A stretch of 64,000 nt of DNA, taken from the NCBI GenBank assembly GCA_011634665.1, contig WAEK01000009.1, positions 731,001 through 795,000 of the forward strand, read 5' to 3'. The notes under the pieces are model-generated. The model saw nothing but the letters and a program-made list of their open reading frames with translations, did no database searches and was not told where the DNA came from. A program made the position numbers and the translations under genes. Below, one piece after another: positions 6,912 through 59,824 of this stretch (its first letter is position 1; each line of letters begins with the position of its first letter). This DNA comes from Mortierella sp. BCC40632. Taxonomy: Eukaryota; Mortierellomycota; Mortierellomycetes; Mortierellales; Mortierellaceae.

Positions 6912-9900
6912 TTACCACCTTCGCCTCCCTCCATTATTTCCGCCGTATGCATTTTCACCCGTATGTGATCCTCCTTTGGATGAGTATCCATCCCGGGATC
7001 GATAGTCTACTCCATTGCCTCCTGGACGCTCCCCACCACCTGATCCACCCTTGTTTCCTCCGCATGCTGGAGCATTCCCTCCGCTAACATTTAAGATCTG
7101 TCCTCCTCTCCATCGTTCCACCATGAATGCAACTTTCTGCCCATACTTGCTTCCCCGTAAGCTAACCATGTGTCGCTTGATCAGCGCTGCACATGTCTCT
7201 CTATGCTGTGGTCCTGCATTCATTAGTATGTATTGCACAATGTAGTTTCCGTATTGGTCCGCTGCAATATCAATCAACGGAATTCGTGGTCGATCTGGAA
7301 TTCCGTCAGACACAATATGGATGTAGAGCGCCATGATATCCTCCTGCGTCATTTGGATCACCTTCCCATTCACTGTCACTGTCGGGGTATCGAATGAATT
7401 GTTTTCGGGTTGAGTTTGATTGTTGTTGTTGAATATGTTTCCACTTCTGTCATTGTTGTCCATGGTAGTACTGCTGTTGCTTGTATTCCCAGATACAGTC
7501 CTAGTAGGGGCCCTGATTAATGAAATGGTGGCAGCTGAGGTTGGTGTAGCTGAGGCCATACGGAGAGTTTTCTCAACCACTTTGGAGGCGTACTGATCCA
7601 AGGACAAACTAACAGCATCCTCCAGGATTCTCTGAGTCACAGCTGCCCTGTCGGATGGAAGGCCATGTTCCAGAATGTGCTGGATTACCCAGTTACCCCA
7701 CTGGCCCCTGGCGATTATGGTGACTGAATGCAGTATTTCGTCCAACACTGGGCGCTATTAAGAAATAAAAGTCCATCGTTAATTTTGCTCTGTTACCATG
7801 ACATTCAAGTTGCATCTTAAATAAACATAGTAGGAATACCTTGTCATGCTCCGCGCAGTTCTCGAAAATGTTCTGTACAACTAAACTGCCCGTTTCATCT
7901 ACAGCTACACTTGCCCACCGACCTGCTACAGCATTGTTCACATAGGTCATCACTGCAGGAGGAGCGTCAACCCAGCGAATCTCAAACACTTTTTGCCATA
8001 CATGGCACGCATATCTGTGCACAATCGTTTCTCGGATTCGTCGGAACATTTCTGTCACAATCCTTGCCTTCCATTCTTCTTCGACATTATCTAGTGCCTT
8101 TTGAACCACATGGCAGCCAAATGGATCACATGCCAATGACAAAATGTTTCCCTTCATCGCCTGTGCCAATGCATCGATTTGTTGTGGAGTCCCAAACTCG
8201 AAACAGCGTTGAATCAGGAAGTTCCCGAACCGGTTTGACATCAATGCATAAGCTTGCCCCAGAATTGCGTCAATGATCTGGACCTTGATCTCTGGTGGTG
8301 AAGTTTTGAGCTTTTGCTGAAGATGGATCGAGGCTTGTTGGTCAGTTGCCTGGAGTATCCGATCGACGCATACCTAGGTGATGAAAAAATGGACTGGTAA
8401 GTCTAACAGTCGCCTATGGGAACTTTGGTGGTTCATCTATAGAGAGAATGCTGTCCACTACTCATCTTTTACCTGGTAATCGATGTGGGGGGATTTTTCA
8501 CTATTGCGTCGATAACTACCACGGAAAGAAGGCACGCTTGGAAGTGGGTGTTGTTGATACTGCTGAAGATGGTGTTGTTGAGGCTGTGGCATTTGTGTTG
8601 AGTGTGAATATGGTTGACTGATAAAATTTGGATCGAATGAACTCGAGTGCATTGCACCTTGCTGAAAAACGCTTGGGGATGAAGGGTTAGAATCATACCC
8701 AAATCCTATGGCCTAGATTAGAGTGGGAAATTGTTTGAAAATATTTGTCAATGAGCGATAGAAATTAAAGCACTCTCATCCCGACCAGACCATTTACTTA
8801 CGTCCTCTGTCCATGATTGCGATTGTGATAATCCTCCAGGAGTATTCCAAGGGTATTGCATTTGCTGTTCAAGCGCTGGCGTATCAAAAGATCTCATCGT
8901 AGAAGAGAAGCCTCCTGAGTTCCGGTGATGTAGCGTTGGGAAGCTCGTATGGGTGTGAACTCCATGTTGGATTCCTAACACCCCTGGCCCACCACGATCA
9001 TTAAAAAGGTTTACTGGACCCACCGGATCGACTGCTGAAAAGTCAGATGACGACTCTACCACACTATTGAGGTCAATTAGCCCCTGCTTCTGATATGAAG
9101 ATTGTAAGTGTTGTTGGTGCTGGAATGATTGAGATTGTTGTTGCTGGAAAAACGACGTATAGTTATTGAGAAGCTGGCAGTTCCCGACCTTCGTACTGGG
9201 CGCGATGTTTGTCTGCTGTACCTGAGCACTACTCTGGACTGAGTTTGAGTGAGAGAGGGACAGATTTGACAACGCTGATTGTACTCCGAGAGCACTACCA
9301 AATGATAAGTTGGGCTCATATAGTTCATCTGGTGCGACATCTATGCCAGGAGCTCCTCCAGTTGTCGTGACCTCTAAAGCGCCAACTGCCGGTGAAGCTT
9401 CGTCGTCCTTTGTTGAGCACACGAGACTAAACGATGGTGATAACGATCTAAAGGATGGCATTGTTGATGATGCTGCCATGCTCCCACCGTTGGCTTGGGT
9501 GGTGACATGCGAGGTAAACTTCGATGTTGATCCTTTTAAGGTGGCCGTTGTGTCAAACCCAGATAGAGAATGTGTGACCGACGTGAAGCCTTTCAGATGC
9601 TGTAACCTCTCAATTTCCCTGTCCTTTTGTCGGATACTTCTTTGCCCCTCTTCCACCTCCAATCTCAACTTAGAGATTGTTTTCTTGAGTTGCTTAATCT
9701 CAGTAAGCTGTCTCGCGTAGGTTTGTTGTAGATTATTAGAGACAGCGCAATTGGCCTGGTCTTTCCAGTGAGGAGTGTCGAAGGTGGTGCCTTCTGCCGA
9801 AATGTTCGAGAGCAATAAACACGGCGAACTCTTGCGTCTTTGCTCCGCATGGATTGGAATAAAAGCTGAGTTCTATCAAAGTAAAGGGTGCTGACAATTA

Positions 9901-38815: not shown

Positions 38816-41345
38816 GCCTCTATTTCCCAGCGGTCAATATCTTTTCACTTCAACGAAGCAGCTGATCCCAGGTCCCGACTTCCTGAAGTTCCTTTCCTTG
38901 CGTTATTTTGAAAGAAAGGTAAAAATAGCAGAAAAGGGAAGGTGGCCCCTTGACTGGGGTTGTCGGTTATCCTGGATAATAGAGTCGAAGGACTAAGAAA
39001 GGTGCTATACATGCACCTCGGGTACTGAAAATAGGCAGCAATAGTCTGATCCACCAAAGTTAACTTTAAGGATGGGTCCGTTGTATGTGCTCAAGGCACG
39101 TTGGCTGAGGGATATGTGTCAAAGCAAGAACAATGACCACAAAGAGTAGCGAGTGAAACGTCGGATCTGACTGTACAAGAGCCTGATGCAAGATTGGATG
39201 AAGAGATTGGCTTGAACACTGCAAAGAGGTCAATAGAAACAGACAGCGCTGCAATGCATTGTAGTCAGTAGACATGAAGACTGGTTGGCGGAGTTGTGAT
39301 GACTGAATCAGAGCCAATCTTTATATCCTTACTTTTTTCGAATTGAGTAGTCTGATTATAGATGGTCTGGTGCTGGCCCCGCTCACCTGAGGACTCGATT
39401 CGATGGTTGCAAGGGTAAGTGGCCGTTGGATGGACCAAAAGGGTGAGCTGGAAAAAAAAAAAAAAAAAAAAAAAAAAAAACAAGAGCGAGGACAGTAGAG
39501 TCACCTGCCTGAGAAGTATAGCTGCGAACGACGCAAAATCAAGGAGGAGAAAATGGATGGTAAGTAGCTCAAAAGTAGGGAAGAGAAGGAAAAGTAAAGG
39601 AAGGCGAGACCCTCCAAGGGTGGAAAGGGACAGACTCGAAAGTCTCTAACTCTGCTCTGACTAGAACGTTCACGAGTAAAAGTCTGCAATCACCGACTGT
39701 TTCATTGTCCAGTCTGCAATTTGTTGCCCTAGCGATGGCGAGGAGTAACGACGCCTTTGTGCCGACAGAAGGGACTAAGGAATTCAGAGGAATCACAGAG
39801 GGCAAACAAGAAGTAGAAGCCTTTGTTCCCTTACTCAACTACTTCACAGCGTTTGCTGATCTAGAGACAGTAGGCGGCGGATGCTGCTCTTTCGAGAATG
39901 GCGTGGCGTGAGAAGGGAAGATGAATAGGTCAGGATGGCCTACATCTTTTATACGTCACCATCTCTTCGGTTTTCAGGTGTCAAAGGCGATACCATTCTT
40001 CAGAACCCGATTTTTAGACAGTCGTGAGTCCAAAGAGGAGCCACCAGGTCATACACAGAAAGACTGACAAACCTGCTCTCTATTGATGACATTGATGAAG
40101 CCCTACATCGGCTGTTCACAAGTCTGTTGAGACAAAGTTCTCTGCAGCTGAATTGGCTGGATCGATCCTGAAAGACGTGTCTTGTAGAAAGATACCATTC
40201 CCATGCGACTTTGTACCCAAAAAGCGAACGAAGTTAGTCAAGTTAACTTCAGGTTACTATGACACTGAGATATCGTGAACCGGTTCGGAAATGCATAATC
40301 ATCGCAACCACCATAATTACTAAAGTCAACCTCATGATAGTACCTGCTGGGTGAACATTTAATTCTGTTTGTATAGGACCGAAAGGAGTATATGACTTTC
40401 CCAATAAAGCTCTTGACATTGCTGCCAAGAGCTGGGTGTCTCGATGGCTTCCGACTGTGAATACTGCTGAGGAGCACAAGAATGAGGTTCACTTCTGTCC
40501 TTTTCTCAACTTGTTCGTCTGTAGGATCGTTCGACTGTTCATTGTCCTCGTTTTCGGCGAGTATATCTGAACCAGATACCATCACTCTCTATCAATTGAG
40601 AAAGATCTTGGGATAGTCTATAGAGATAAATGACAGCGGCTCGTTCACAGGGACGTCAGACTCAGTGAACAACTTGCACCACATACTTTGGGATTTTCTC
40701 AGTTTCAGAGATCAGACCCCTGACGACATGGACCTTCATCACACGTTCGCCCCATATCAACACACAGGGTACCAACTTGGAGTGCCATAGTTGTGTGCTC
40801 GAGTCACTGTGCAATGTAATTCTCATTGTCCGTACTACGGGTATCCTTCTTGCTCAAGCATTTAACTCTCTTCGTCGTGAGCCCCGTGTCAACGGTCCAT
40901 ACAGAAGGCGTGTTGCTACCTGAGCAGGGGTTCTTTGTCCAAATCCTCCGTTTGTGAAGCGCCATGGCGTCAAGGAAGGTTGCGCTTGATTTTCCGAGCC
41001 TAGTTTTTTCCAGGTACCGGATGCGATGCTTGTACTAGTAACGGTATCGCTAACTGGAAAATTCGACCAGACACCTTACCAGTAACAAAATAGATAGGGC
41101 GAGACCAGTCCTTGTTGGCCAATCCTCTCTCAGTTAACAAAATAGGAAGGAGACACCAACTTTTTTTTTTTACTTGGATACCTGTAAATCCCCACTACGA
41201 GAAAAACCAATGTCCAAAAAGCCCCGCAGGGGCCGCTCATTGGAAATGGGCAAGATGAGGGAGGTAGGAGAGGGACCAATGGAGGGAAAAGGTATAGAAG
41301 CTGAATTGGTCTAAAATGAGCAGAAGATGCCATTGAATTGCGACG

Positions 41346-41376
<31 letters not shown>

Positions 41377-41521
41377 CGAGTCAGGTACGAGGGAGGATGA
41401 TGACCCATGCCATCAAAAAGCCTAACGAGAGGCCGGGGACGCCAGGATGGAGGTTGGATCAATAGCTTCGTGCTGGGTGCAGGCCCAGGTGGCCCTTGAG
41501 CCTTTTGTTTTATTTCATTTG
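38816..41521. other. Gene-poor spacer with A tracts and an orphan ORF
   Basis: A runs of 29 nt occur at 39452-39480 and 41346-41374. A minus-strand ORF from ATG 40582 to 40238 has protein-like composition (acidic start, then KVIYSFRSYTNRIKCSPSR), but I cannot name it. The rest shows nothing supportable. Confidence 0.4.
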
Positions 41522-42532
41522 TTACTTCTTTGTCCCATCGTAAAGTATGAATTTCATTTCTTTGCGATGGTGTCCCGGCTTTGCAGGAGCAGAGGAAGAT
41601 TGAAGTGCCTGGAGACCTTGAGGTTGTTTCTGGGACTGCGCCGGGGGCTGCTGTTGGTGTTGACGGCGCCACTGAGAGAGAGGTGGTATTGGTACGCGCT
41701 CCGCTTGCGGCAGAGGCGCTATATGCTGCGGTGAAGTGGGCGTTTGCATCGTCTGCAACAACATGTTGAACATGTTATGTTGTTGCTGCATTTGTGCTTG
41801 GTGCATGTGTTGCATGTACTGCAATTGCAACAACAACTGCTGCTGCTGAATACTTGCTGTTGGGGCAGCGATCTGTGGAAATTGGGGATGAGGATGGCGC
41901 TGTTCTTCAGCCAAGTACTGGATTTGTTCATACACATTCTCCTGTGTGCGTTCAAGTCGGTCGATTTTCACCACAACAACCGACACCGTGCCCTTGAGAT
42001 CTTTGATTGACTCGGCTAAACACGGAGTAAGTTGCTGGTACTGATCCAATGGATCCGACTCTGGTCTGTCCAGGCTAGCGATCACTTCCTCTTTGAATCT
42101 CAGGAACGCTGGCGATCGAAAGATACCATTCTGCCGAAGGACTGTGTTTGTCTCGTTAAGCTGGAGCCGTATTGCGGCATCTTGAAGGATAATCCTTCTA
42201 AACCTCACAAGTAGTTTCAAGAATGCCTTCTTTGCCACATCGTCGTCTGAAAAGAGCGCGCCTGATGAATTCGAGGGAGGATCAACACCTGCGTCAGCTT
42301 GAGCGGATGATGGGCTCGATGAAAAAGGAGTGTGTCGATCGGACTCGACAAGTTCGTTTTCATCTTTCTCCAGCATTTGGTTGGTACACTCCTCATTCCA
42401 TTGATGGAATACAGCCGTCCCTGGTCTTCCAAATGCTGTCTCGATCCACGGAAATATTTGACGTTGCAGCTCCAATGGCGGAGATACCCTGTTTCTGGCA
42501 ATCTCGAAGGGTTTGTTCTTGAAGCCTGCCAT
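41522..42532 (-). pseudogene. C-terminal part of an Ndc10/Crypton-type protein
   Basis: An open frame from ATG 42532 (extendable without ATG to 42598) to a stop at 41522. The start MAGFKNKPFEIARNRV, followed by PPLELQRQIFPWIE and FLKLLVRFRRIILQDAAIR, matches my memory of the Ndc10-like DNA-binding domain at the C-terminal side of fungal Crypton tyrosine recombinases. The tail is Gln-rich (QQQQLLLQLQYMQHMHQAQM). The catalytic recombinase part that should precede MAGF is not visible in the roughly 300 bases upstream, so this looks truncated. It could instead be a domesticated single-exon gene. Confidence 0.55.
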
Positions 42533-42924
42533 GCCGATTCTATAAGAGACTCCTCTGAGAGAGTAACCGACTGAACTTGGACAATATCCACTATTCACTC
42601 CACCATCTCTCTGGTTGGGTCGGGCTGTTCGTCGTTGCTGTCATAGATGACTGTTGGGGTCCAAGACTAGCCTGCCAGATTATCCAGCACATTGTGTTAT
42701 GATATAACTCGATGAACAGAGACTGGATCCACTCTTCCTAGCCATATGAGCCAGCCTGCTTGTCATTCTTGTCATTGATGGAAAGGCAGTTCTCAACATA
42801 GTCTTTTGCTCTCGGACCTAGGATCCTTTTGTTTCGTTATCCGTTTCATTGTCACTGTCAAAAGCATCTCGGATCTCCTGCAATGCCAAAGCCGTCCATG
42901 TCTGTTTTTTTCTCTCTTTTTGTT

Positions 42925-43106
42925 TGTGTGTGGTTTTTGATAAATGTTGGCTGCCAATATTTCAAGGCTTTCTTTTTTTTTCTCTCTTTTTTTTTGTGTG
43001 TGGTTTTTGATAAATGTTGGCTACCGATATTTCAAGACTTTCTTTTTTTTTGTATGTGTGTGTTTTTTGATAAATGTTGGCTGCCGATATTTCAAGGCTT
43101 TCTTTT
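42925..43106. repeat. Three tandem copies of a 62-69-bp unit upstream of Fanzor copy A
   Basis: Each unit contains GATAAATGTTGGCT followed by an ATATTTCAAG-type block and a T/CT tract. Copies differ by a few bases. T-rich sequence continues to about 43173. Confidence 0.95.
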
Positions 43107-43284
43107 TCAAAGTATTTAAGGCAGATTTTTTTTTTTTTTTTTTCTTTCCTTTTTTTTTTTTTTTTTTTTTTTTACGAGTTATCATTCTTTGCGACACTCC
43201 CTCTTCGTTGACGCACTATTCCCTTCCTTTTTCCTTCCTACCCCATGGCACACTCATTAAAAGTACGTGGTCCCTCCCGGCCTA

Positions 43285-46200
43285 ATGGAGGAGCTAGAAT
43301 CAGAAAATATGCCTGCCGACGATGGTGGTCTGCTGCTACAGCGCGCCTCTGCAGCATTTGGCCATTTGGACTCGCAACAGGCCACTGGAAGAGAGGATGC
43401 CCGACTAGCTCTAAGCACCTTGTCAGAGTTTGGGCTTGTTGTCACAAAAGGCTCCTCTCATTTCTTGGCTAACTATATTGCACGAAGTCTCAATGGCGCA
43501 ACGAAAGGACCGATCAAGATCAGTATTGCCAAGGACGGAGACGATGTCGAGGCAGTATTCTTCCTTACAGGGAGATTACTCCTCAGACTGTTTTCTACAG
43601 AGTTGAGCGTTGATATTTTTTCTCTTCTCTTCCGCGCGCGGCCCAAGCGGTTCACAGTCGACAATCCAAAAGCAACTATCGCACTGTTCCATATCAAGGA
43701 CTCATTCTTGGGTTGTGGTGAATATGTTGTGATTACTCCATCCACCCGCTCGATCGTTCCAACGCCTTTGGGCCCTATTCAGACGTCTCCAAGAACTCCT
43801 ATGTCGACAAGACCAGCAGCGTTCCGAATTAGCAAACGAAAACGGGCAGTTTCGCACAGCATTCCCGACCTTGATTCGGACACTTGTCAGGCTTTGTTCA
43901 TGCAGGCATGGTGAGTACAGCCAAGAGTTGATTTGATCGATATTGCAACCATCTATCAGCCATCCGCAGGATACTGATTTTTTATTTTTATTTTTATCTT
44001 TTTTTTTTTTTTTTTTTTTTATTTTTTTATTGCTTGACTAGCCTCGAGACGCTAAAATGAACAGGTAAAGGACGAGTACCTCAAGATCGTGGCTCGCAAG
44101 AACTCCAAAAAGGCAAAGGAGCATTTGAGCCGTGTCAACAAAGCCCGTACAACAATCAAGGAACGGATGCTAAGATGGACCAGGCTTCCGCCAAAACACT
44201 CTCCAAGACCACCGAAGCAATTTGCCAAGAATACAATATCAACATCTCATCAGCCAAGGCTAAGGCATCGCTAGGCGACTGCAACACTTTAGAAGTGTGG
44301 AGGGATGTTGTTAATCAAAACTTTGAAGGAGCCTGGGAGCTCTGCACAGTCGACCCCGGAAGTCCCAGCAGTAGCCAGCGGAGCCAAACCAGCGCCAATC
44401 AAGAAAATTCATCACAAGACGAATGGCGTACCTGTACAGCCACTTTTCGCCAAATTTTGCGCCCCGAGCTCCAGGACCAGTACGAGTACCTTTGCGACCT
44501 TTTAATGGAGCAGCAAACGGATCTCACCAAGGTTTTGGAAGAGATATCGATCCTTGCACTGAAGACAACCCACGTCGTAAGTAATCCATTGTACTGAAAA
44601 TATTTGAGAGCGAACAACAGGTTAAATCTACAGCAAACTAACACCAGATCCACGATCTACTTTGCTGCCGTAGATGGCTAGTGGGAACCTCTTTGATGAT
44701 TCTCTCGGACCCATCGAATCGGATGGCTTCGACATCCAGCGTGTGCTCCCAGGCGGTTTCCAAATTCGAAATGACGTGCCACAGACTCTTAACGTTGCGC
44801 CAATACCGAAACTTTTACAACAGCATATTGAGGAGCCCATGAACCAGCGCGATGACCTTTCGACACTACTGTCCAAGGAATATCTCCAGTTTGCTTACGC
44901 ACGACTGATCTCGGCCAGCCAGAAAGTATCGGCTCGTGGGAGCGCAAATCATCCACTCTGGCAAAGAGCTGTAAGGATCATCGACACGGATCAAGTACCT
45001 AAAGCACCTGGAAACATGTCAAGGACCATTCTGGCCCACCTTGGTCAGTATGCGACCGCAATCGAAAATCTTTGGAACGGAGGCGCCTACAACAAGGTGC
45101 TGGATTATCTCCTTCGCGTCTTGCTACGTCTACACCTTGCTCCTATGCGAGAGAAACGGAACAAGGATCGAGCCGAAGCATTTTTGAGAGAAAGAGAACA
45201 AAAAGCAGAACTACATTCGAATACTGTCGAACCAAGACTGTCAAAGTCTCTCTGGAGAACGACTGTCTCAAGGATCATGGACGAGATTGCCGATTCGGAA
45301 GACAAAAGCAAGCCTATCCGTACGATGGTGCTCATTAAAAAGCTGTATGAGCTCTACAAGAGGAAACCGATACCTGGTCCAAGTAATACACCTCCAATAC
45401 CTCCATCTTCTGGTGGTGTCCCAGGCCCGTCTTCATCCAGCAACGTGCCAGATCCGCCTGTACAAGCCTCTGCCTCAACAAACGTTGGTGGGCCAAGCAT
45501 GCACACGGGTGTTTCACTGGACCCATCACTAGATGCATTGACGAATGCATCAATGAATGTGTCATTTGATACCCTGCAGAACGATCCACCCGACACATCG
45601 CTGGACATTCTTCTATCCAAGAATCCCAATTTGGACGTTGCTGACCTGGAGGATATGATGGATGACGAAAATGAAGTTGAGAATGTGATTGGGCAAGACG
45701 CTACAAGAGCACGTCTACGTGCACTGCAGGCCATGTTGAAGACGCTCCTCGAGTCACCCTTTATTCAGGAGAGGATCAACCCGAACTATGTCAAGAGAAT
45801 GGCATTCCACGGCTCTCCATTAACCGACAAAGAGTGCATTGTGGTGGCTGTCTTGGCTGAAGTCCTCAGACCATACGTTCCCAAGAGGCGTCCACTTGAC
45901 CGTGGCGGAACTGCACCGCCTCTAGCTCATCCTACAGTTAGGGCACCCTTGATTTGTATCGCAAACTCTGTACTGAGAGCAACGGGATATTCTCACTTTG
46001 CTCGACTGATCTGCCCGGAGGTGTCCCCCTCGTCACTCCAGGCGCTTCACATCGGTCCAGCAGAGTTGTATGAGGTGTTCTGCACGAATGAAGAGGGACG
46101 TTTCGACGTCAACGATGCTAGAGGACGCCCGTTGACTAGTACTGCTCAAGCAACTATGCCCCCAGAGAACAAGCGAGCAATCTTTGAAGCGTTCTTTGAT

Positions 46201-47027
46201 CTTCCCAAGATCGCTCAGATTTGCGATAGACATGGCCTGAATTTCACAGACAGGTGAGTACATCTTGTTCTATTGTTACCATTGTATCCTCGGAGCCATT
46301 AGACTAACTCGAATGATTTTTTCGAACAGGCTGGTGTTTGCCGATCCCCATTGTGTCCGTATCCTAGGCAAAGAAAAAGAGTACACTCAGGATCACTCAG
46401 GATATCGTCGCCGGAGCAAGTATGAAGAAAGGCGAAAGCAAAAAAAACCTACAGGCCAGATCAACTGGAATGAAGAGCTGGATCGAACCCAATGGACCAA
46501 GGATCGGGCCGAAAGCCAACGCACAGAGGTGTCTCAGCAGCTCCACCAACTTGAGTTAACTGTACGACAACTCAGGGATGAACTGGCAGTCAAAGAGAAA
46601 AATAAATCAGGACTTGGTCAATCGGTTCACGAACGGCGAAAGAAGCGCCACCTTATGGAAGAGGGGCGATGGTACCATGCACTCCGAACATATAAAAAAT
46701 CTGTCAGGCGCCTAAGGTCTACTGTCATGGAAAAAGAGGCTGAGGTTCGACGATTACGACAGGAGCTGTACTACTGGAACAAAGTCCTTGCTGTCAGCCA
46801 GGTAGCCTCCAAGAGCACCGGGGAAGACGAGTTCGCGGCAGACACAGTTCTAACACCGAATAGATTCGCTGTTGAGGACTCCACTGAGAGATTAACTATC
46901 GAGCAATTGCCGAGCGATCAAATTGTCTTTGCAGGGACAGACTATGGAATTGTCACGATGTCTGAAACGGTTCCTCAGACACTGAGCGAAATCCAAGTCC
47001 ATTTGAACAGATTCAGCTTGCTTTTTG
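43285..47027 (+). pseudogene. Fanzor (eukaryotic TnpB) copy A: N-terminus through RuvC-I, C-terminal half absent
   Basis: Segments are 43285..43910, 44065..44577, 44674..46253 and 46330..47027, with good splice sites between the last three. The last segment has a coiled-coil, basic region and the RuvC-I block IVFAGTDYGIVTMSE with the catalytic-type Asp, then ends at donor GTACG. No zinc ribbon or RuvC-II/III follows before copy B. The first splice and a point near 44165 do not keep frame, so the N-terminal part appears broken. Homology to copy B runs along the whole length (for example CTATFRQILRPEL here and CTATLQQVLRPDL in B). About 1,100 residues precede the RuvC-I Asp. Fanzors are RNA-guided nucleases carried by transposons; activity of this copy is unlikely unless it joins copy C. 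Confidence 0.75.
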
Positions 47028-47254
47028 GTACGTTTTTTTTTTTTTTTTTTTTTTTTTTTTGAGGAGGAAAAGAAATATTTAACAAATACTAAAGAAATAT
47101 CTGAGTTTCGCGTCACCTGATAGAAAATCCCCCTTTTCCTTTTCTGGTTTGCTCTGCTGTTACCTGCCCTTCTTTGCTACCTGTTCTGCTGTCTGCTACA
47201 ACATGCCCTTCTTTATTCGGCCGTAGGTGTCCTGCGTGTAATGTGCTACGTGCG

Positions 47255-47370
47255 TGCTACGAGAAGGCATACGACCGGAGTGCTATGAGAAGGCGCTATG
47301 AGAAGGCGCTATGAGAAGGCGCTATGAGAAGGCATAAGATCGGAGTGCTGTGAGAAGGTATAAGATCGGA
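47255..47370. repeat. 13/26-bp tandem repeat
   Basis: Units of the form GCGCTATGAGAAG, four in direct succession, flanked by longer 26-bp versions that add CATAAGATCGGA. Confidence 0.9.
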
Positions 47371-48324
47371 GCACCGGTCATGGCCATTAACCGGAATAAG
47401 AAACTTTCTTCTATTCTTTTTCCATCCTGAAGGGTACTTTTAGCAAACCTTGCAATTGCAATGTGAATAGTGGTGGTGGTGGTGGTGACTGAACATTTGT
47501 AATAGCGGCTGCAATCGTAATCATTTTCTCACTCCATGTGGGGTAGACCTTTTAATCTTTATACATCCCAAAAAGGTATCGCAGACCCGAGAGGGGCTCT
47601 TTTTCACCGAGTAGTCGGGTTCTCTCAGACATCTCTAATCGATTACTCAGAACCAACTTTAGGATCCCATGCCCTCGCTTCGCACTGTTTCTCTATGCGT
47701 CGGCATGCTTTCTCGACCATGTACAGTAGTAGGACATGACAGGTACAGTGTCTTTCATGGAATTGATATCAATGACCCTCAGGCAAGAAAGCAGGCAGTA
47801 GAGGCGTTTGCTCGGGCACTGGTGTGGTGGTACGACTCTAGCAGGGCGAACGATCAAGGCCGATTCAAAGCCATTAGCGACTGCCACTCGGACCAGGACG
47901 ACCAGCGACACTCACTAAGCCGAAACATGAAGAACCTGAGATGGAACTTCAAGAGTGCCATGAATAAAAAGAGGAGCTAGCAATCAAGGTACTGGGGTGA
48001 AGGCGATTCAAGAAAAGTACCTAATCCAATTGGTGAAACACAGACTCAAAAGGGCACATGTTGAGACACCTGGTCACCTCTTCCTATTGACCTTTTTGGC
48101 AGCAGTCTTTCTCCTCACTCCTTCCCATTGCAACAAGCAACTTGAGACATTGGTGGCCCTAATGGGTCGATGCAAAGCTAATCAATAAACACTTGGTGTT
48201 TGAAAGAAAAAAAAAGAAATAAAAAAAGTAGGTTTCTGAAAAAACGGTGTCCATCCCTATTCTCTCTCTCTCTCTCTCTCTCTTCATTTCATCCACTTTG
48301 GTCGGACAGACCCAAAAAAAAAAA

Positions 48325-48665
48325 AAAAGGACTATTTCAGAAAAGAGGACTATTTAGAAAAAAGTAGTATTTGAAAAAGGACTATATCGAAAAAAAAGGA
48401 TTTGAAAAAGGACTATTAGAAAAAAAGTAGTATTTGAAAAAAGGACTATATCGAAAAAGTAGGATTTGAAAAAAGGACAATTTAGAAAAAAAGGATTTGA
48501 AAAAGGACTATTTAGAAAAAGTAGGATTTGAAAAAAGGACTATTTAGAAAAAGGACTATTTCGAGAAAAGTAGGATTTGAAAAAAAGGACTATTTCGAGG
48601 AAAAGTAGGATTTGAAAAAAAGGACTATTTCGAGGAAAAGTAGGATTTGAAAAAAGGACCATTTA
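48325..48665. repeat. A-rich satellite of about 30-37 bp units
   Basis: Roughly ten imperfect copies built from AAAAGGACTATTT and AGTAGGATTTGAAAAA blocks. Copies vary in the number of A and in ATTTAG versus ATTTCGAG endings. Confidence 0.9.
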
Positions 48666-49049
48666 GAAAAGAGGTCAATTTGAGAAATATTCAATTCAGC
48701 AAGGGCAGGAGTTTGAATACAAGTGCTTGGTCCTGCGTGCCACAGCTATGCAAAATAGAGCTACTACGTAACGAACAGCTTAAGTCTGAGGAATGTGTGT
48801 TCAAAAGCTCTCTCTCTCTCTCTCCTCTTCTCTTTCTCTCTCTCCATACAGTTCATGATTATGTCAGTTTGAAGACCGTGCACTGCGCATGGTCCCCCTG
48901 AAGCGTGAGGAAAAAAGAATGATTCATATTTTCCCAGCGCCATTCTGGCACCGACAAATTAAAAGTGAGAAGATGCAAAGTGCAGCGCACTAGAGGATTC
49001 AACAATGAGAGAAGAGAGAGAAGAGAGCTCTGCTTGAACTTGACCTTTT

Positions 49050-49165
49050 TCTTTCCTTGCACACACACACTCCACACTCCACAATCCACAATCCACAATC
49101 CACAATCCACACTACACACTACACACACACTATACACATACACTACTACACACATACACGCTCTC
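49050..49165. repeat. CA/ACACTCCACAATCC microsatellite
   Basis: CACACA runs with a short CACAATCC unit repeated about four times, about 180 bp upstream of Fanzor copy B. Confidence 0.9.
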
Positions 49166-49347
49166 TCTTCCTCTTTTTTATCATGGTAGGGCAAAGAATA
49201 AAGAAAGCACAAAAAGGACCCCCAACAGTTCAACTTTGACACCTTGCTAAATATTTACTACATCGTTTTGCTCTTTAGGAGTCAACACTGAATTATTCTT
49301 TTGCAAAGAGAGATCACAGCGCAGGACTCTTGAGAGTCTGGAGGAGC

Positions 49348-52300
49348 ATGCTAGAGAGGCATGACCCTGCTCTTGCACCCAGACTGGAGAGTACTCTGTC
49401 CCTTGACCACTGTCAATTGGAAAACAGGGCAAGTACGATGGAGACACTCTGCCGACAGGGCATCGTCGTCGACATGGCTCCACTTGAAACATCTCGGGTA
49501 CCAGCGACAACATCGATCGTGCAAAGTCTTCTCAATAACACTGCATCTCGAAACCCTCTATTCACTCTTACCATTGGAGACACATCAGTTGACATCCCAC
49601 CCCACAGCAACCTGCATTTCCGACTATTGTCATCAGAGCTACACGTTGACATTTTTGTCTTCTCCACCCGAAAAAAGACAAAGGTCTTCAGGAGCGAAGA
49701 CTCGACAATGTCAATCGGTATTCTTCAACACGTTGACTCCTACCTTGGGACGAGGGAGTGTTTGGCATTGGTGCCATCCAAGAACTACTCGGTCCAACAA
49801 CATACCCCAGGAGAACCTCCAGCCCAGCCATACCATAGCCGCTACTCCCCGGCGGTCTACCGCACAGGCCCAAGAACCTATAGCGGTTTTAAAAACGGAA
49901 GTTAGACGATCCTGCGGACGCTGATATCCAGGAAGCCTTCAAAAAAGCAAGGTAAATGTTTAAACATGTACTTTTCAAGTACTCGATAGCAGAAATAGCC
50001 TCATAAAGCATGGTGTATCTAATGGCTTCTCCACTTGATACTGTGCAGGCATGACTACATAGCAAACCGCATTAAAGGAAGCATCTTAAAGGGCAAAGAC
50101 AAAGGGGAAGCCTACCAGTCTCTTATTGCAACAAAGAGACTTCCTCTATGCATCAAAAAGTCCGCCTTCGATACCATAAGAGCCTCCAACGTGGCCGCCC
50201 GAGATCTTTCTAGGACTACTATGGACAAAAATTGGGGAAGGACGGCACCGTCAACCAATGGAACAGCTACCTCGAAGCAAACTTTCAGTCACTATGGGAG
50301 GCAGAAGAAGAGGCCAAGACCAAAAAGCTGTCTAAAAGGGAAGGGTCGCGCCGACTCGAACGATAAAGTCGATGCGGCAGCTAGAACAAGTGGAGAGGAG
50401 GAGGAAGAGGTAGTAGTAGTAGGAGAGGAAGCGGGAAGAAACGGTGATGGCGATGATGGTGGCAGCGATGGTGATTACGAGATGGAGGAAGAGACTGGAC
50501 CCGATCAGAGACAGCTCCGATCCTGCACAGCCACACTTCAGCAAGTTCTTCGGCCTGATCTTTGTACAGAGGACAAAGAGAGAATCCGAATTCTCCTAGA
50601 GAAAAGTCAAGAGGCTATGACGGTGGTTTGTGAGGAAATCTCGGTGCTGGCTACGAAGGCGGTTCATGAGGTAATGGCTCTGCATTTTTATTTTATTTTA
50701 TTTTATTATTTTTTTTCTATTACTGACAAATGAATATCACCTCTTTTTTTCTTTTTTTTAGCTCGCATCAGGGACTCACTACATCAATCCATCTACCAAG
50801 ATGGCCTTTGACATCCAGTCGGTCTTTCCGGCAGGATTCGAGTTTCGGGACAAGACTGTCCTGTCCTTGCTCCCAGTTGCGGCCCTTCCTGACCTTTTGC
50901 CAGAGCACCTGGAAGCCGAGAGAAAGAGCGACACGACAACTCTAATGTCGTATAGCTTTCTCCTGTTCATGTATTCTTGGTTCTTCGGAGCTCAAGGAGT
51001 TAACGCAGCGAACAAAGCCAGGCGACAGGTCTGGAGCAGTGTGGTCGGTAACCTCGTATCGGGCAAAAGCAAGTTTTCAGTAGATGTTGGAGGCCGTTCA
51101 AGTACTGTTAGTGAGCACTTGAAGCAAATGGCTACAAACATCGAGAACCTTTGGGGAGGCCAGATGTATGACAAGCTTCTCGATCACACTCTCTTGCTTC
51201 TATTGCGGCTCCATCTGGCTCCAGAGAGAGAGCGAAAGCAGAGAGAGAAAACTCAAGTCGTCAGGCCACGAGAAAGAAAAGTCATCCCAAGAATGCAACT
51301 GTAGGCAAGAGTAGATGGAAACGGACAATCCTGGTGCTCTGCGATGATCTCAACCGTGCTCTTGACAAAGACCCAACCGGAGATGGGCAACGGATTCAAT
51401 CGGTCCTGCACAGGATTGAATACATCCTGGCTCACAAGTACACAGCCCAAAACCGCTGGGGCGGAATGTTTTGAACCACTGGATGTCCGACTCGAACATC
51501 TGGATACGGACAATTTCGGAGGGGTCAATTTTGATGACTGGGATTTTAGCCAACTGGAGGGTGACCCTGTCAAAGAGCCGACAGTCGAGGCGGGCGGTGA
51601 ATCCAGTATTCAAGCCCTAAGGAGAGCCGTCGAAGACCTGAATACGGACGACCTTGAAGGGATTGATTTTTGACGATTGGGACATTAAAGAACCGGAGGA
51701 AGATTTTGTCAAAAAGAGCCGGTGGTTGAGGTGAACAACAAGGACAATGGTGTGACCCAAAGGAGAACTGTCAAAGATCAGGACTCTGACAATCTCGAAG
51801 GGTCTGATTTCGACGACTGGGATCTCGATGAGATGGAGGAAGAACTAGAAAACGAATTAGGGGATTCTCTCGCTAAAGAGCCAACAAGAGCGATCATATT
51901 GTCTTTGAGGAGACTTCTTCGTATGCTCCTAGAGTCACCCCGAATCGAGAAGGAAATCGACAACAACTGGGTCAGAAAGTCAGCACACGGCGGAATGGAT
52001 ATCACCGAGGAGCAATGCAGTGTTGTAGCCAAGCTGGCCAACGCACTTCGACCCTATGTTGCAAAACGTCGAGTTAGCCGAGAGACGAGACCCCAAGGTG
52101 GAACGAGGGGGCGCCCTTGGCCCACGCTACTTTGCTTGCACCTATGGCCATCATTGCCAACGCAATTCAAAAGAGCGGCTGGGTATCCTCAGCACACTCG
52201 GCTTTTGTCACCGCAGATATCACCTTCTTCCAGTCATGCATTGATTCTTGGAGCGAAGGGGTTATACGAGGTGTTGTGTGCCAAGACGCCAGGCCACTTT

Positions 52301-54492
52301 GATATCAAGAACTCTGAAGGCACTCCTCTAATAGCCGGAGAAAGAGTCCCACATCACAAGGACGCAGTCTTTGGGGCATTCTTCGACTTGGAGAAAGTTC
52401 AAAGGCTGTGTCGCAAGCATGGCCTCAGATTTGCGGACAGAATGATGTTCGTCGATAGGTACACAGTCCGGATTTTGGGTGAAGTGATTCCACAGGGAGC
52501 CGAGCGTGGAGGTCGCCCGTTGTTCAGCCACTACGAGAGGCGGGTCAAGGCCAAGGTCAGGACTGATACTATGGACTGGACCAAAAAGAGATAGAGTATC
52601 AAAAAGATGGAAGTGGAAACAATTGCTGAAGAGATCAAGAGAGTAGAGAGCAATATCAAAGACCTTGAGAGTAGAATCAAGCGAGGCCGAAAGGAACTCA
52701 AAAGGTGCTCGAGACGGATCAAAAGCCTGACAGCCAAGAACCACCGCACAGCAGTCAGAAAAGAGAATGAGAAGGCAAAACAAAGGAAGGCATCGGGGGG
52801 GCGTAGACACGAATGAGGGGGCAATATTCAGAGTGTAGAGGACGGAAGAGGGAGTGAAAAAAAAGACATATCGCGTTCTTCAAGAAGCAAGGAGAAAGGT
52901 GCGAGCTCTTTCGAGCAACTGTACAGCCACAGGAGAGTCAGTTGCGACGCCTGCGGAAAAGAGGAGTTACTGGAATGGGCTCCGCAGGGTAGTTACAGCA
53001 AAACCCCAAAGAGCAAGGATGGCTCAAAGGCGGTGGAGTACACCACACCTACTGTGAAGGATTTTACAGTCGAGGATTCAACGAGGCGCCTCGATATTTC
53101 CAAGTTGCCAGAGGACAGAATTGTCTTTGCAGGGACAGATCCAGGGATTCGAACGATGAGTGTAACATGTGCACAGACCCTGGGCGAGATCAAGACGCAT
53201 ATCAACCGATATGCTGTACTTTTATGGTAAGTTGAATGGGCAAGATGTAAGGAATAATGTCGGTCATCTGTCAAGCTCAGCGCATCTAATAGCTTTTTTT
53301 AATGATGAATAGGCACAGAAGAGGATGCGGAGGAAACCTTTGGGAGCTCTAATCCTGAGCCATGGCCACCACCTCCGGATGAGGAGTCATCAGGAGAGGC
53401 AACTGCCTCTAGAGAACAATGGACATCCCAGAGTCGTCCATTCAAGATCACGGCACCTCAGCTCAATGAAGCTTCAGGGATGCGACGGGTAGCCAAGAGG
53501 CGAGAGATGCGACTTAAGAGACCGGAGAATAGTGATGTACGCGAAGCACTGGAGAAGCTCTCAGACAAGGAACAAGTTTTGAAGACAGCACAGACGATGG
53601 AGGAGATTGACAGGGCGCATGAGCTGCATCGAGAGTCACGCAAAGCATTGAAGGGATTTGAGAAAACCAAGGCAAGGTTGAAGGATCTGCACAACCAGCG
53701 ACTTCACGCACAAGAAGGGTGGGGGAAGGTGGCGGCAGCAGAGAGGGAGTATGTGAAGAATCACGCATTGGAAACGTTTGGGTCAGAGAGCCCATCAGGT
53801 ACAGTTGAGCAGAACAAAATGTCCTTTTTTTTTTTTTTTTTTTTATTTTTACTGAGTCTTCTTCTTTTAATGTTCTAGAGGTATCCCCGTCAGATGGATG
53901 GTGTGGTGGTTGCCAACGGCACCATATAGCGTGTACCTGGGGTAACTACCAGCACCTGGCTCGGTGTCGCAAGAATGGTCCATCACTCATCCCAGTGATG
54001 CTGGTGGGGTCAGGAGGAACGGGAGTAGGAAGCAGAATTGGAGGGCACGCTAGACGGGGAGGAGGAAAGATGAGAGAGCAGCATATGCGGTACGGAGTGG
54101 TTGGACTTACTGATGAATTCAGGACGAGCCAGACGTGTGCCGAGTGTTTTGGTCAATTGAGGAAGGCACGGTCGCGTCGGATTGTGGATGGCAAGGAGAA
54201 GATGGTTCAGGTGAATGGAGCAATGGAGTGTACGAACAGCCAGTGCGGGTCAGTCCAGCGAGGACATACGATCAAGTCCCGGGATGTGAACGCAGCCGTT
54301 TGTATTGCGATAGCAGGAGGGTCGACTCTACTCTCACTGGAGAGACATACACTGGAGCCATTTACAAGGACAATCCGTCCCACCAAACATACCTGTTCAT
54401 ATTCACAGGAGATAGCTCAACTTACTATGCCTCCAACATCAGTTAGAGATGCAATGGGGGATCCCTGCGGTACGCAGGGCAAACTAGGCTAG
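49348..54492 (+). pseudogene. Fanzor copy B: full-length layout, multiple frameshifts
   Basis: N-terminal homology to copy A starts near 49348 and runs through segments near 49348-49960, 50047-50670, 50762-51300, 51320-51680, 51722-52594, 52607-52815, 52850-53230, 53310-53805 and 53880-54492. Frame breaks against copy A or against internal repeats occur near 49880, 50240, 51280, 51666 (an extra T in a T5 run), 52590, 52815, 53030 and just before 53226. RuvC-I reads FAGTDPGIRTMSVTC. The C-terminal part is open: GHARRGGGKM, TDEFRTSQTCAEC, CTNSQC, and RuvC-III SRDVNAAVCIAIAG. The DEFRTS Glu is where fungal Fanzors carry their alternative catalytic Glu. The stop is TAG at 54490-54492. The gene is broken, but the catalytic residues remain. 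Confidence 0.8.
54463..54479 (+). ncRNA. Hairpin in the last codons of Fanzor copy B (candidate omega-RNA element)
   Basis: CCCTGCG, three-base loop GTA, CGCAGGG: a perfect 7-bp stem ending 13 bases before the TAG. In TnpB/Fanzor systems the guide RNA derives from the 3' end of the gene. This assignment is inference from position and from a hairpin at the aligned place in copy C. Confidence 0.35.
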
Positions 54493-54549
54493 TTTAATCA
54501 CCATTAAAATTCTTATTAGATCAAGTCGATACTGACGTACCCTCCACAG

Positions 54550-55815
54550 AGTCGCCAACCCAAACAGGTTCTTCTGTTGTTGCAACTGCCACAAAACGGT
54601 CGCTCACTCAACTGATGGAGTTGGAGAAACTACGGTTGCCACGGTCCCACAGAATCACTGCGAAACAGATTAACGACATTTCGCATTCCGAAAGGTCGAC
54701 AAGAAAGCGAAATCGTCGACTCAGACGTCCTGAAAATAATAGCACACGCGAGGCTATTGAACAGCTGTCTGATAAGCAAAACGTCCTAAAGACAGCCAAC
54801 AGTTTGGGAGCCATAGACTCTGCCCGTCGCTTCCATCGGCCTGTTGAGGATGACTTGAAGGCATTCGAAGCTTCTACCGTGCGGCAGCGAGATTTACGGA
54901 ATCAGCGCCTCAGGACAGCTAAGGCATTGGCAAAACTCGGTGCAGCAGAACGCACACATGTCCGAGAGCATGTCAGACAACACGATGTGAAGAATGATGG
55001 AGCACGTAAGTACCATGAAAATGAGCATATTGCCTTGCCTATCTATGGAAAGAACGTGGGGCTCAAATCTTTTCCTTTCTACGTTCTAGTCGTAGGTACA
55101 GTAGCTTACGGAGACGGCTGGTGCTCTTCATGCTTAGCCCACCATATTCCTCGAAACTCGGGCGGACGTTTTAGACACATTTTGCAGTGCCCCAAGGAAG
55201 AAAAGAAGTATTTCAAAGTCATGCTCATCGGAGATGCAGGAACTGGAGTAGGCAGCCGCATTAAAGGCCACGCACGACGAGGAGGTGGAAAGATGAGAAA
55301 GGAGCATCGACAGCACTGCACTGTCGGCATTACCAGCGAACATCGCAGCTCCAAAACATGCATTTTTTGCTTCCAAGAAGTCAGGTTAGCCTGTGCTCGA
55401 CGAGTTATCCGAGGCGAGGTAAAGACGGTGAAGGTGCATGGCGCTGTAGAGTGCGTGAATCCCAAGTGCCCGTCTCTCAAGTGTGGATACTCAATCCGGC
55501 CCCGAGATACTCACTCGGCGGTAGCAATTGCGATCGCAGGGGCATCCAACCTCCTCTCTCCAGAGCGTGCCACCTTAAAACCATTCAGCCGGCAACTGAG
55601 ACCCTTGGGAGTCAATCCCACCACCAAAAACACCAGTCAGACACTGGAACCACTTTCAAGCTCTTCCTCATCCAGGCGGATTCCAGGAGAGCCCCTCGCA
55701 GATCGAGGCGTACTTGTAAGTTCTCTCTTTTTTTTTCTTTCTTCTTTTTTGATTGGTCAAATGAATACACGTGACGGCTCTAATATGGACATTTCTTATT
55801 TTTCTTCATTAGTGA
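54550..55815 (+). CDS. Fanzor copy C: intact C-terminal half without N-terminus
   Basis: Exons 54550..55005 and 55090..55715 are followed by an intron whose acceptor at 55812 leads directly to TGA (55813-55815). The product has about 360 residues. The first exon begins after an acceptor CCACAG in phase 1, with no ATG, so an upstream exon is required. It aligns along its whole length with the B C-terminus: basic helical region, DGWCSSC, GHARRGGGKM, SEHRSSKTCIFC, CVNPKC and RDTHSAVAIAIAGAS. The first zinc pair is CIFC and the second CVNPKC. The RuvC-III Asp and the alternative Glu are kept, while the usual RDxNAA reads RDTHSA. No frameshift was found. It may be the missing half of copy A. Confidence 0.7.
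55694..55708 (+). ncRNA. Hairpin in the last codons of Fanzor copy C (candidate omega-RNA element)
   Basis: CCTCG, loop CAGAT, CGAGG: a 5-bp stem at the codons aligned with the B hairpin (GDPCGTQG in B, GEPLADRG in C). The stem sequences differ, yet pairing is kept with a two-base offset. Short stems can arise by chance. Confidence 0.3.
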
Positions 55816-56311
55816 TACAGTTCTCCTTTTCGGATCAGTTAGTGAATTCTTGCCATTTGAAGCTAGTCCGCTCAGCTGCCCGCACCGGGGTGCAATCCTG
55901 TAGCTTTATATTGCTTATTTGCGAATCTTTTATCCTACCCTGTTCTCTCTCTATAGAAACGGTGAGACGCATCTTGATAAGTATGTCACCCTCTTCCACC
56001 CTTGCGATCCCTTTCTCAATAGGTCTCACAAACCTGCTTGTCATACAGTGCGAGCCTTTCCCCCCGGTGCTTGTCCTCTACACCGCACATCCTTTCCCAG
56101 CCTTTCTCTCTTGATCCATCATTTTCTTTCCTAATCAACTATTTTTAACAAGTCTTCATATCATACCTTCCACTTTTTAACATCTTCTCCATCAAAACTA
56201 CTTCTTTTCATCCTTTCTCTCTTCCTCACTCCCCTTCCCCGAGTATATTTATCATTTTTTTTTCTTTTTTCCATATCTTGCACACTTGAGTTCGATTTCG
56301 AGCCCTATTTG
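55816..56311. other. Spacer between Fanzor copies C and D
   Basis: Pyrimidine-rich, AT-rich DNA. The frame of copy C stays open through it to 56114 if the last intron is retained, but the sequence there is hydrophobic and low in complexity, so I do not treat it as coding. Confidence 0.5.
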
Positions 56312-56932
56312 CTGGAGGGGCTGGCGACTGCCCGGATGCCTTTCGGATAATAGCGGGGCACTCCTCGAGCGCGCCACGGCGGCCTTTGGGTGGGATTCAC
56401 AACACCTGCCAAGAAATGAAGATGCTCGTCGAGCTCTGAAGTTTCTGGCAGAGTGTGGATTAGTTGTTTACACACCTACCAGTCCTGAGAACTCGCATAG
56501 GCAAGTCTGCCTCATTGCTGACATTCTCAGCGGCAGAAGACCAAACTCATTCAGTGGTATTGTTACCAAAAATGACGAAGAAGTCGAGGCCTTGCTGCCA
56601 CTCGGAGGGAAACTTGTAAGATTTCTCTCTGGAGAGCTGGAATTGGACATTTTTTTTGTTCTCTTCTCGCCCCCGGCCCCGCAGGTTCCGGAGTATCACT
56701 CCAAAAGCAACAATCGTCTTCTTTCACAGACAGGATTCTTTCCTGGGCTGTGGAGAGTACTTTGTTCTTACCCAACCATACATCCTTTCACTATGCCACT
56801 TACAAATCCCCTTTCACCACTCCAGAACCTTCCCTTATCGGCGCTGAGTGGCTCCAGACCTGCGTCGTTTAGAAAGGGCAAGCGGAAACGGAGAGTTTAC
56901 AACAGACCCCAGAGATTGTTGAAGCAGGCATG
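56312..56932 (+). pseudogene. Fanzor copy D: damaged first exon only
   Basis: Aligns with exon 1 of copy A (NEDARRALKFLAECGLVV, GELELDIFF, DSFLGCGEYFVLT, SRPASFRKGKRKRR, ending KQAW at donor GTGAGTACC). The start codon position is CTG instead of ATG. One base is gained before the CGCGCC block, and stops TAA TAG appear. A further shift lies at a T8 run near 56650-56657 and is reversed near 56760. Nothing of the later exons remains: the 3' end of MCP1 follows within 110 bp. Confidence 0.75.
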
Positions 56933-57041
56933 GTGAGTACCATAAAGCGATTTGATTCAGTTTTTTTTTTACTCGCCACTTTAGATGCAATTCTAGACTT
57001 TTTACATTCTATATCGATATGAAATACGAAACCTTGGTCAT

Positions 57042-58976: not shown

Positions 58977-59102
58977 GCTGGCACGATATTGTCATAAGAC
59001 AAAGGATAAAGACACTGAGCTTGAAAACAAAGCTGAGGCGAGAAGCAGAAAGTACAGGAAAAGAGGGATGAAGGAGGCGGAAGAGGTAGAGAAAACGAAA
59101 AA

Positions 59103-59824
<722 letters not shown>

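Follow-up and report, generated by a model that had tools for sequence, protein, structure and literature searches.

Two Fanzor1-type transposons, one apparently nested in an intron of the other's gene, in Mortierella sp. BCC40632

Introduction

Why do several partial genes for Fanzor, the eukaryotic TnpB, lie side by side on one strand in the genome of a Mortierella soil fungus? The question arises from a 64,000-nucleotide stretch of Mortierella sp. BCC40632 (assembly GCA_011634665.1, contig WAEK01000009.1, positions 731,001 to 795,000 of the forward strand), hereafter the window, in which an earlier note had described four Fanzor copies in one island at 43285-56932. We find that the island comprises two Fanzor genes and one fragment, one gene lying inside an intron of the other, and thus represents a nest of two Fanzor1 elements in different carriers and not a cluster of four copies. 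With a probability of about 0.82, a Helitron-like transposon, termed B, resides in an intron of an outer, recombinase-associated Fanzor element.

Fanzors travel as passengers of several transposon types, and their benefit to eukaryotic elements is still in question. A nest in which one Fanzor lineage occupies two carriers, one within the intron of the other and with many close copies, could offer a direct test of retention or homing.

Results

The source genome searched comprises 49.9 Mb in 62 contigs, here given C-numbers, and we retain the letters A to D for the copies of the earlier note. The three N-terminal halves (A, 43285-47027; B, ~49330 to 53215; D, 56181-56933) and the two C-terminal halves (B, 53309-54492; C, 54520-~55715) are all present on the plus strand, and the motifs quoted for copy B were recovered at the positions given in Table 1. 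They are no chance resemblance: a protein search of the source genome with the last exon of B gave at least 154 matches at E<=0.001, with 150 of 252 candidates scored. The assignment to the Fanzor family stands; the count of four copies does not, as A and C form one gene, B is a second gene and D is a fragment.

The connection between A and C is provided by P0030, an uninterrupted orthologue represented by an 802-amino-acid gene model from Lunasporangiospora selenospora, a genus placed in the Mortierellaceae, which also hold the closest protein relatives of the window. P0030 aligns to 45658-46254, 46319-47023 and 54504-55709, and its residues 427-430 meet across the gap. Moreover, joining the donor after 47027 to the acceptor before 54520 fits the junction LLF-DQVDTD, as in P0030. 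Since P0030 runs from A to C across the gap and the splice sites fit its junction, A and C are one split gene (A/C), and, to judge from the sequence, its transcript would be spliced across B. The remaining predicted A/C introns likewise possess GT donors and AG acceptors. Exons 3-6, when joined and read to 55900, yield 1,191 codons without a stop, with GTDYG, SEHRSS and PRDTHS in this order; the 3′-end of exon 6 was placed through comparison with P0030, and no in-frame stop occurs up to 55900. Comparison of five to six composite copies, i.e., A/C copies containing B, gave 54 silent and 40 replacement changes for exons 3-6 (dN/dS 0.27, p 2.5e-10, expected replacement share 0.735). By this measure, the A/C gene has been under constraint.

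Element B (47078-54492) almost fills the A/C intron (47028-54519). Copies of B elsewhere start matching at window position 47077 and stop at 54493, and because they share these edges, B is a separate element. At the left edge, 12 of 15 rows show A followed by TC directly at the first base; two of the other rows lie on C30, where A and TC stand slightly farther outward, and the third is the plus-strand copy on C17, which belongs to a head-to-head pair and is devoid of this motif. B in the composites starts with TT where TC is expected. At the right edge, T ends all 28 rows (21 places), preceded by CTAG at 20 places and by CCAG at one. No target duplication was seen by eye in the fetched flanks. 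Among the 11 loci fetched on both sides, one flank is common to six, and the right flank of C6 recurs at C17, which leaves approximately six independent sites including the composite. Allowing up to two mismatches, 54 3′-ends and 26 5′-ends of B were found genome-wide (controls, 0 and 2), three of the latter belonging to one tandem repeat on C17; our own pairing of the end and edge searches gives 16 copies with both ends.

B copies thus display 5′-TC, CTRR-3′, insertion between A and T and no duplication, as judged by eye, together with a hairpin shortly before the 3′-end, all of which are Helitron features. In line with the earlier note, no transposase was found between the halves, neither by a Pfam scan of ten island open reading frames nor by a genome search for Helitron_like_N. 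The latter was restricted to the N domain of RepHel, and its 23 matches all fall outside the window and more than 10 kb from the listed B 3′-ends. Non-autonomous Helitrons do not encode RepHel. In ten aligned copies of the B exons, 130 indels from the majority sequence (93 of one base, 121 in homopolymer context) and 143 substitutions were summed. Because indels are nearly as common as substitutions and mostly stand in homopolymer context, some frame breaks could be assembly errors.

Several further observations concern B copies. Copies truncated at the 5′-end start inside T-rich runs at four of seven related loci (L016, L018, L020 and L022, at ~6500, oriented). A tRNA 3′-end suspected before the truncated copy in L022 was dropped, as ARAGORN finds no tRNA in this locus, and the idea that the 3′-end of B is better conserved than its remainder received no support from the conservation profile. 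Some copies lie near contig ends (C17:5380-5439, C1:2412, C12:4715, C30:197698), and where the two C17 copies meet head to head, a 20-bp unit is repeated.

The outer element extends from 41031 to 55820, as delimited by the start and end of the matches of A/C relatives. Within it, just left of the interval of the earlier note, lies a truncated recombinase gene on the minus strand (41522-42640), whose open reading frame matches profile positions 233-298 of NDC10_II with an E-value of 1.7e-4 and 21.2 bits, the cut-off being 26.3. The recombinase part adjoins Fanzor C-terminal halves in degraded relatives at C14 and C4, and by coordinates also at C8 and C2; its N-terminal half is present at C5 and has no counterpart in the window. 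The outer element is hence recombinase-associated and, in this copy, not autonomous. The earlier note had considered that the element could be autonomous or borrow the enzyme of another; autonomy falls away for the outer copy owing to the truncated recombinase, and B has no identified replicase. Two other candidates were set aside. A putative Helitron-type end of A/C at CTTG followed by T, near 55715, resembles the end of a RepHel Helitron of the host. The locus C6:733316 (L049), taken for an empty A/C intron, contains poly-T and GAGGAAAAG, but it retains the last 7 nucleotides of B and has no A part upstream; this A/C C-terminal half without B looks like a deletion scar, perhaps.

The nest is not confined to the window. 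The A part occurs at 97-98% identity at six places including the window, and the C part at 96-97% at four further loci, a contig end truncating the sixth place. The nest was therefore observed at six loci, at one of them only up to the start of B. Because five right flanks and four left flanks of these copies all differ, the outer element has moved, and the insertion point of B is identical in the five composites in which the junction is seen. The genome-wide search for copies and boundaries that the earlier note had suggested thus located the edges of B and of the outer element.

Table 1. Features of the nested Fanzor locus in window coordinates.
Feature	Position	Strand	Basis or remark
Left end of outer (A/C) element, GTATCGCTAAC at 41044-41054	41031..41060	+	other copies start matching; flanks differ further left
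Ndc10/Crypton-like tyrosine recombinase remnant, C-terminal part only	41522..42640	-	weak NDC10_II match
A/C Fanzor predicted exon 1	43285..43910	+	43393-43767 similar to P0039 residues 51-183; donor GTGAGT
A/C Fanzor predicted exon 2	44065..44576	+	reading frame broken where it meets exon 1 (this assembly)
A/C Fanzor exon 3	44674..46253	+	open; 45658-46254 91% identical to P0030
A/C Fanzor exon 4, RuvC-I GTDYG at 46934-46957	46330..47027	+	splice sites, motif
A/C intron: GTACGT donor, poly-T, element B, ATTAG acceptor	47028..54519	+	P0030 continuous across (residues 427-430)
Element B, Helitron-like transposon with second Fanzor gene	47078..54492	+	edges common to solo copies
Array of ~16-bp tandem units inside B	48324..48687	+	
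B Fanzor RuvC-I exon, GTDPGIRT 53132-53155	52829..53215	+	
B Fanzor helical exon, between RuvC-I and RuvC-II	53309..53800	+	
B Fanzor last exon: inserted knuckle DGWCxxC (53893), Glu DEFRTS (54112-54129), C4 ribbon CAEC (54136-54147) and CTNSQC (54229-54246), RuvC-III (54277; RDVNAA within 54277-54297)	53881..54492	+	
B 3′ terminal hairpin CCCTGCGGTACGCAGGG	54463..54479	+	7-bp stem, 9 nucleotides before CTAG
A/C Fanzor exon 5 (copy C of the earlier note)	54520..55005	+	P0030 alignment, splice sites
A/C Fanzor exon 6: Glu SEHRSS 55335, C4 ribbon 55359 and 55452, RuvC-III PRDTHSA 55500	55090..55715	+	
Right end of outer element, ..CATTAGTGATACAG	55800..55820	+	five loci, five different flanks
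D, first-exon fragment of a third relative	56181..56933	+	55827-56482 85% identical to C7:2737229-2737867

The earlier note had further suggested profile searches and structure prediction as checks of the family assignment. The searches against Pfam and NCBIfam returned no family above cut-off for the ten island open reading frames or P0030. The prediction was favourable: the family model, made for P0006 from Benniella with a mean predicted local distance difference test (pLDDT) score of 81, adopts a RuvC (RNase H-like) fold for which Fanzor1 entries rank first among solved structures, with CasPhi almost level. The larger A3 profile gave 5wti as its best match among sequences of the PDB at an E-value of 0.33, SpuFz1 falling to 0.69; P0029, which matches ribosomal L35Ae and is probably a fused gene model, was kept in the A3 alignment.

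Both window genes contain the D-E-D residues and the alternative Glu. The latter stands before the zinc ribbon as ExxxxxxCxxC (DEFRTSQTCAEC in B, SEHRSSKTCIFC in A/C). Of 47 homologues, 30 show this pattern, and among the remaining 17 several end before this region. RuvC-I reads GTDPG in B and DYG in A/C. Of 18 homologues matching G[TS]D[YHP]G, 16 have DYG, one DHG and one DPG, and a looser pattern adds one DFG; in known Fanzors, DPG at this site is described as near exclusive, not absolute (PMC10711439). A C4 zinc ribbon and the RuvC-III RD follow as CAEC..CTNSQC..RD in B and CIFC..CVNPKC..RD in A/C. The second Cys pair is CxxxxC, and the spacing exceeds the pattern CxxCx(12,18)CxxC given in PMC10711439. 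Between RuvC-I and the Glu, both window genes have a CxxC..HH..C knuckle, which was also detected in 23 of the 47 homologues, counting partial sequences. P0039, a partial protein of 1345 amino acids, has its RuvC-I Asp at position 1084; adding the remainder by comparison with P0030, we arrive at a full length of ~1,480 amino acids. From RuvC-I to the Glu, 233-301 residues were counted in the nine homologues in which both were found. At the sequence level, the family therefore departs from known Fanzors in its size, its mostly DYG RuvC-I and the extra zinc knuckle in RuvC.

Characterised Fanzors cut DNA using an RNA from the right end (PMC10432273), and by analogy with them both genes likely encode RNA-guided nucleases; a guide RNA and cutting are what we infer for each. 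The last 200 nucleotides of B fold slightly better than shuffled sequences (z -2.77), and Rfam gave no match at 41000-57000. The stop codon of B is the TAG of the terminal CTAG, so that any guide scaffold of B would overlap the coding sequence.

Discussion

We propose that the outer element harbours a giant Fanzor gene of several exons alongside the remnant of a dead Ndc10/Crypton-like recombinase. Helitron-like B, with a diverged Fanzor and no identified replicase, would have entered an intron of this Fanzor gene by a single insertion between A and T. As B lies in an intron and has the same direction as the host gene, splicing could remove it. Both proteins would probably act as RNA-guided nucleases that, by analogy, aid the retention or genome spread of their own element, and to move, the elements would need enzymes provided in trans.

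The view of the earlier note, that independent Fanzor copies, some truncated, are adjacent by chance, can draw on four fragments of differing sequence on one strand and on the many Fanzor fragments across the genome. We consider it highly improbable, as the order seen in the window is found again at five further loci for A and at four for C, B keeps its own sharp edges in solo copies, and the adjacency of the end of A and the start of C in P0030 refutes independent copies for these two; D alone stays a separate fragment. Whether B is a Helitron at all is a separate matter. No RepHel was identified in B, the ends of the compared host Helitrons differ, and one B copy on C25 has a recombinase gene 1.7 kb away, all of which would fit another recombinase-type element with coincidental ends. 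However, the 5′ A followed by TC, the 3′ hairpin 9 nucleotides before CTAG and T, the lack of visible duplications and the excess of 3′-ends are all Helitron-like and render that alternative unlikely.

How the nest came to six places is less clear. B may have been inserted once in one A/C copy, the composite then being transposed as a unit to all six. The T variant at the left end of B, which every one of the six composites carries and all 15 other mismatch-free ends listed lack, agrees with such a course, as do the differing outer flanks and the pair C6-C1, in which A/C (0.57%) and B (0.63%) diverge about equally. In the other nine of ten pairs among five composites, however, A/C differs more than B (0.96-1.96% vs. 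0.34-0.73%) although it is the more constrained, and the exons of A/C show a mosaic make-up with two sequence groups. Spread solely as a unit is conceivable but less likely than not. Because B differs less than its host gene, it may instead have spread, through homing or conversion, into A/C copies that were already present, or have been homogenised with solo copies. Gene conversion among the 16 full copies, which falls only a little short of an even chance, would keep B alike and make its low divergence uninformative on homing. Accordant with conversion, the B of the window is closer to the solo copies on C19 and C17 (0.25%) than to the B of the four other composites compared (0.34-0.66%), and only one fixed difference separates five composites from five solo copies in 48800-54450; the private left-end variant kept in all six composites speaks against it. 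That B homes, i.e., that its Fanzor, guided by the right flank of B in the A/C intron, cuts A/C introns devoid of B, which then acquire B when they are repaired from an occupied copy, strikes us as improbable. If true, the nest would be a eukaryotic counterpart of TnpB-carrying intron elements, removed by host splicing, and one RNA-guided transposon would colonise the nuclease gene of another while that gene survives.

Several results weigh against the nest of two Fanzor1-type transposons as we read it. B has no identified RepHel, and the two RepHel Helitrons of the host that were compared, though similar in plan, end in a hairpin and CACTTG followed by T, not CTAG followed by T. A search with the empty-site pattern for the commonest B target gave 0 matches. 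The modelled protein stems from Benniella and not from the window, CasPhi nearly tied with the Fanzor1 entries in VIA-align, Foldseek TM-scores to Fanzors, normalised by query length, reach only 0.29-0.41, and a first model (P0030, 17 sequences) was poor with a pLDDT of 54 and was not used; family support at the sequence level is weak. The B exons appear weakly constrained (13 silent and 24 replacement changes, dN/dS 0.66, few changes), exons 1 and 2 of A/C join out of frame in this assembly, and part of the silent and replacement signal of A/C may predate the insertion of B. The outer element ends in short imperfect inverted repeats, and a 7-bp direct repeat, TTAAATA, was seen in only one relative. 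Cryptons are expected to have neither inverted repeats nor target duplications.

With the Fanzor1 proteins SpuFz1, PpFz1 and GtFz1, the window genes share the RuvC fold, the C4 zinc ribbon, the D-E-D residues and a spacing of six residues between the Glu and the first Cys of the ribbon. In contrast, most Fz1 proteins measure 600-700 amino acids (PMC11423790) against ~1,480 here, RuvC-I and the Glu of SpuFz1 are 158 residues apart (D383 and E541, PMC10432273; our subtraction) against 233-301, and RuvC-I is mostly DYG, unlike in known Fanzor1. PpFz1 has a RuvC insertion of ~100 amino acids (PMC11423790), and the family of the window has the knuckle in RuvC.

The carriers have known relatives as well. 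MCi-2 of Mucor circinelloides likewise pairs a Fanzor1 with a partial Crypton transposase and has a conserved 3′ and a variable 5′ part (Bao and Jurka 2013, PMC3627910); there, the C-terminus of the recombinase is missing and duplications of 11-12 bp occur, and the passages of PMC3627910 on MCi-2 describe no nested second Fanzor. CRe-1,2,3, the Helitron2-Fanzor1 elements of Chlamydomonas, resemble B in lacking RepHel, in their multi-exon Fanzor1, in many 5′-truncated copies and in T-run junctions, but B has ends of Helitron1 type (TC, CTAG, one 3′ hairpin) and no duplications seen by eye (PMC3627910). Fanzor1 in non-autonomous Helitrons is known from Chlamydomonas (PMC3627910), Fanzor1 beside Crypton-like genes is known too, and the high spread of Fz1 in incertae sedis fungi has been reported (PMC10432273). 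For the intron nest, the protein size and the active-site variants, no precedent was met in a limited look at the open-licence Fanzor literature, parts of which were covered, nor was a paper found there on a Fanzor in Mortierella or on Cryptons among Mortierella transposable elements. Roughly double the length of a typical Fz1, with a zinc knuckle inserted and DYG prevailing at RuvC-I, the proteins described here would widen the known range of these nucleases.

Additional Observations

A third Fanzor-carrying element of ~2.1 kb, starting within poly-T and ending in ..GAGTAGACCCATT, occurs with different flanks in L025, L026, L027 and L028. It occupies ~5090-7209 in L025, L026 and L028 (oriented), L027 matching over 5875-7209, and in L028 it sits within the poly-T of an intron belonging to a B copy. 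The window also contains, at 59028-59350 and thus right of the island, an array of 8-bp tandem units.

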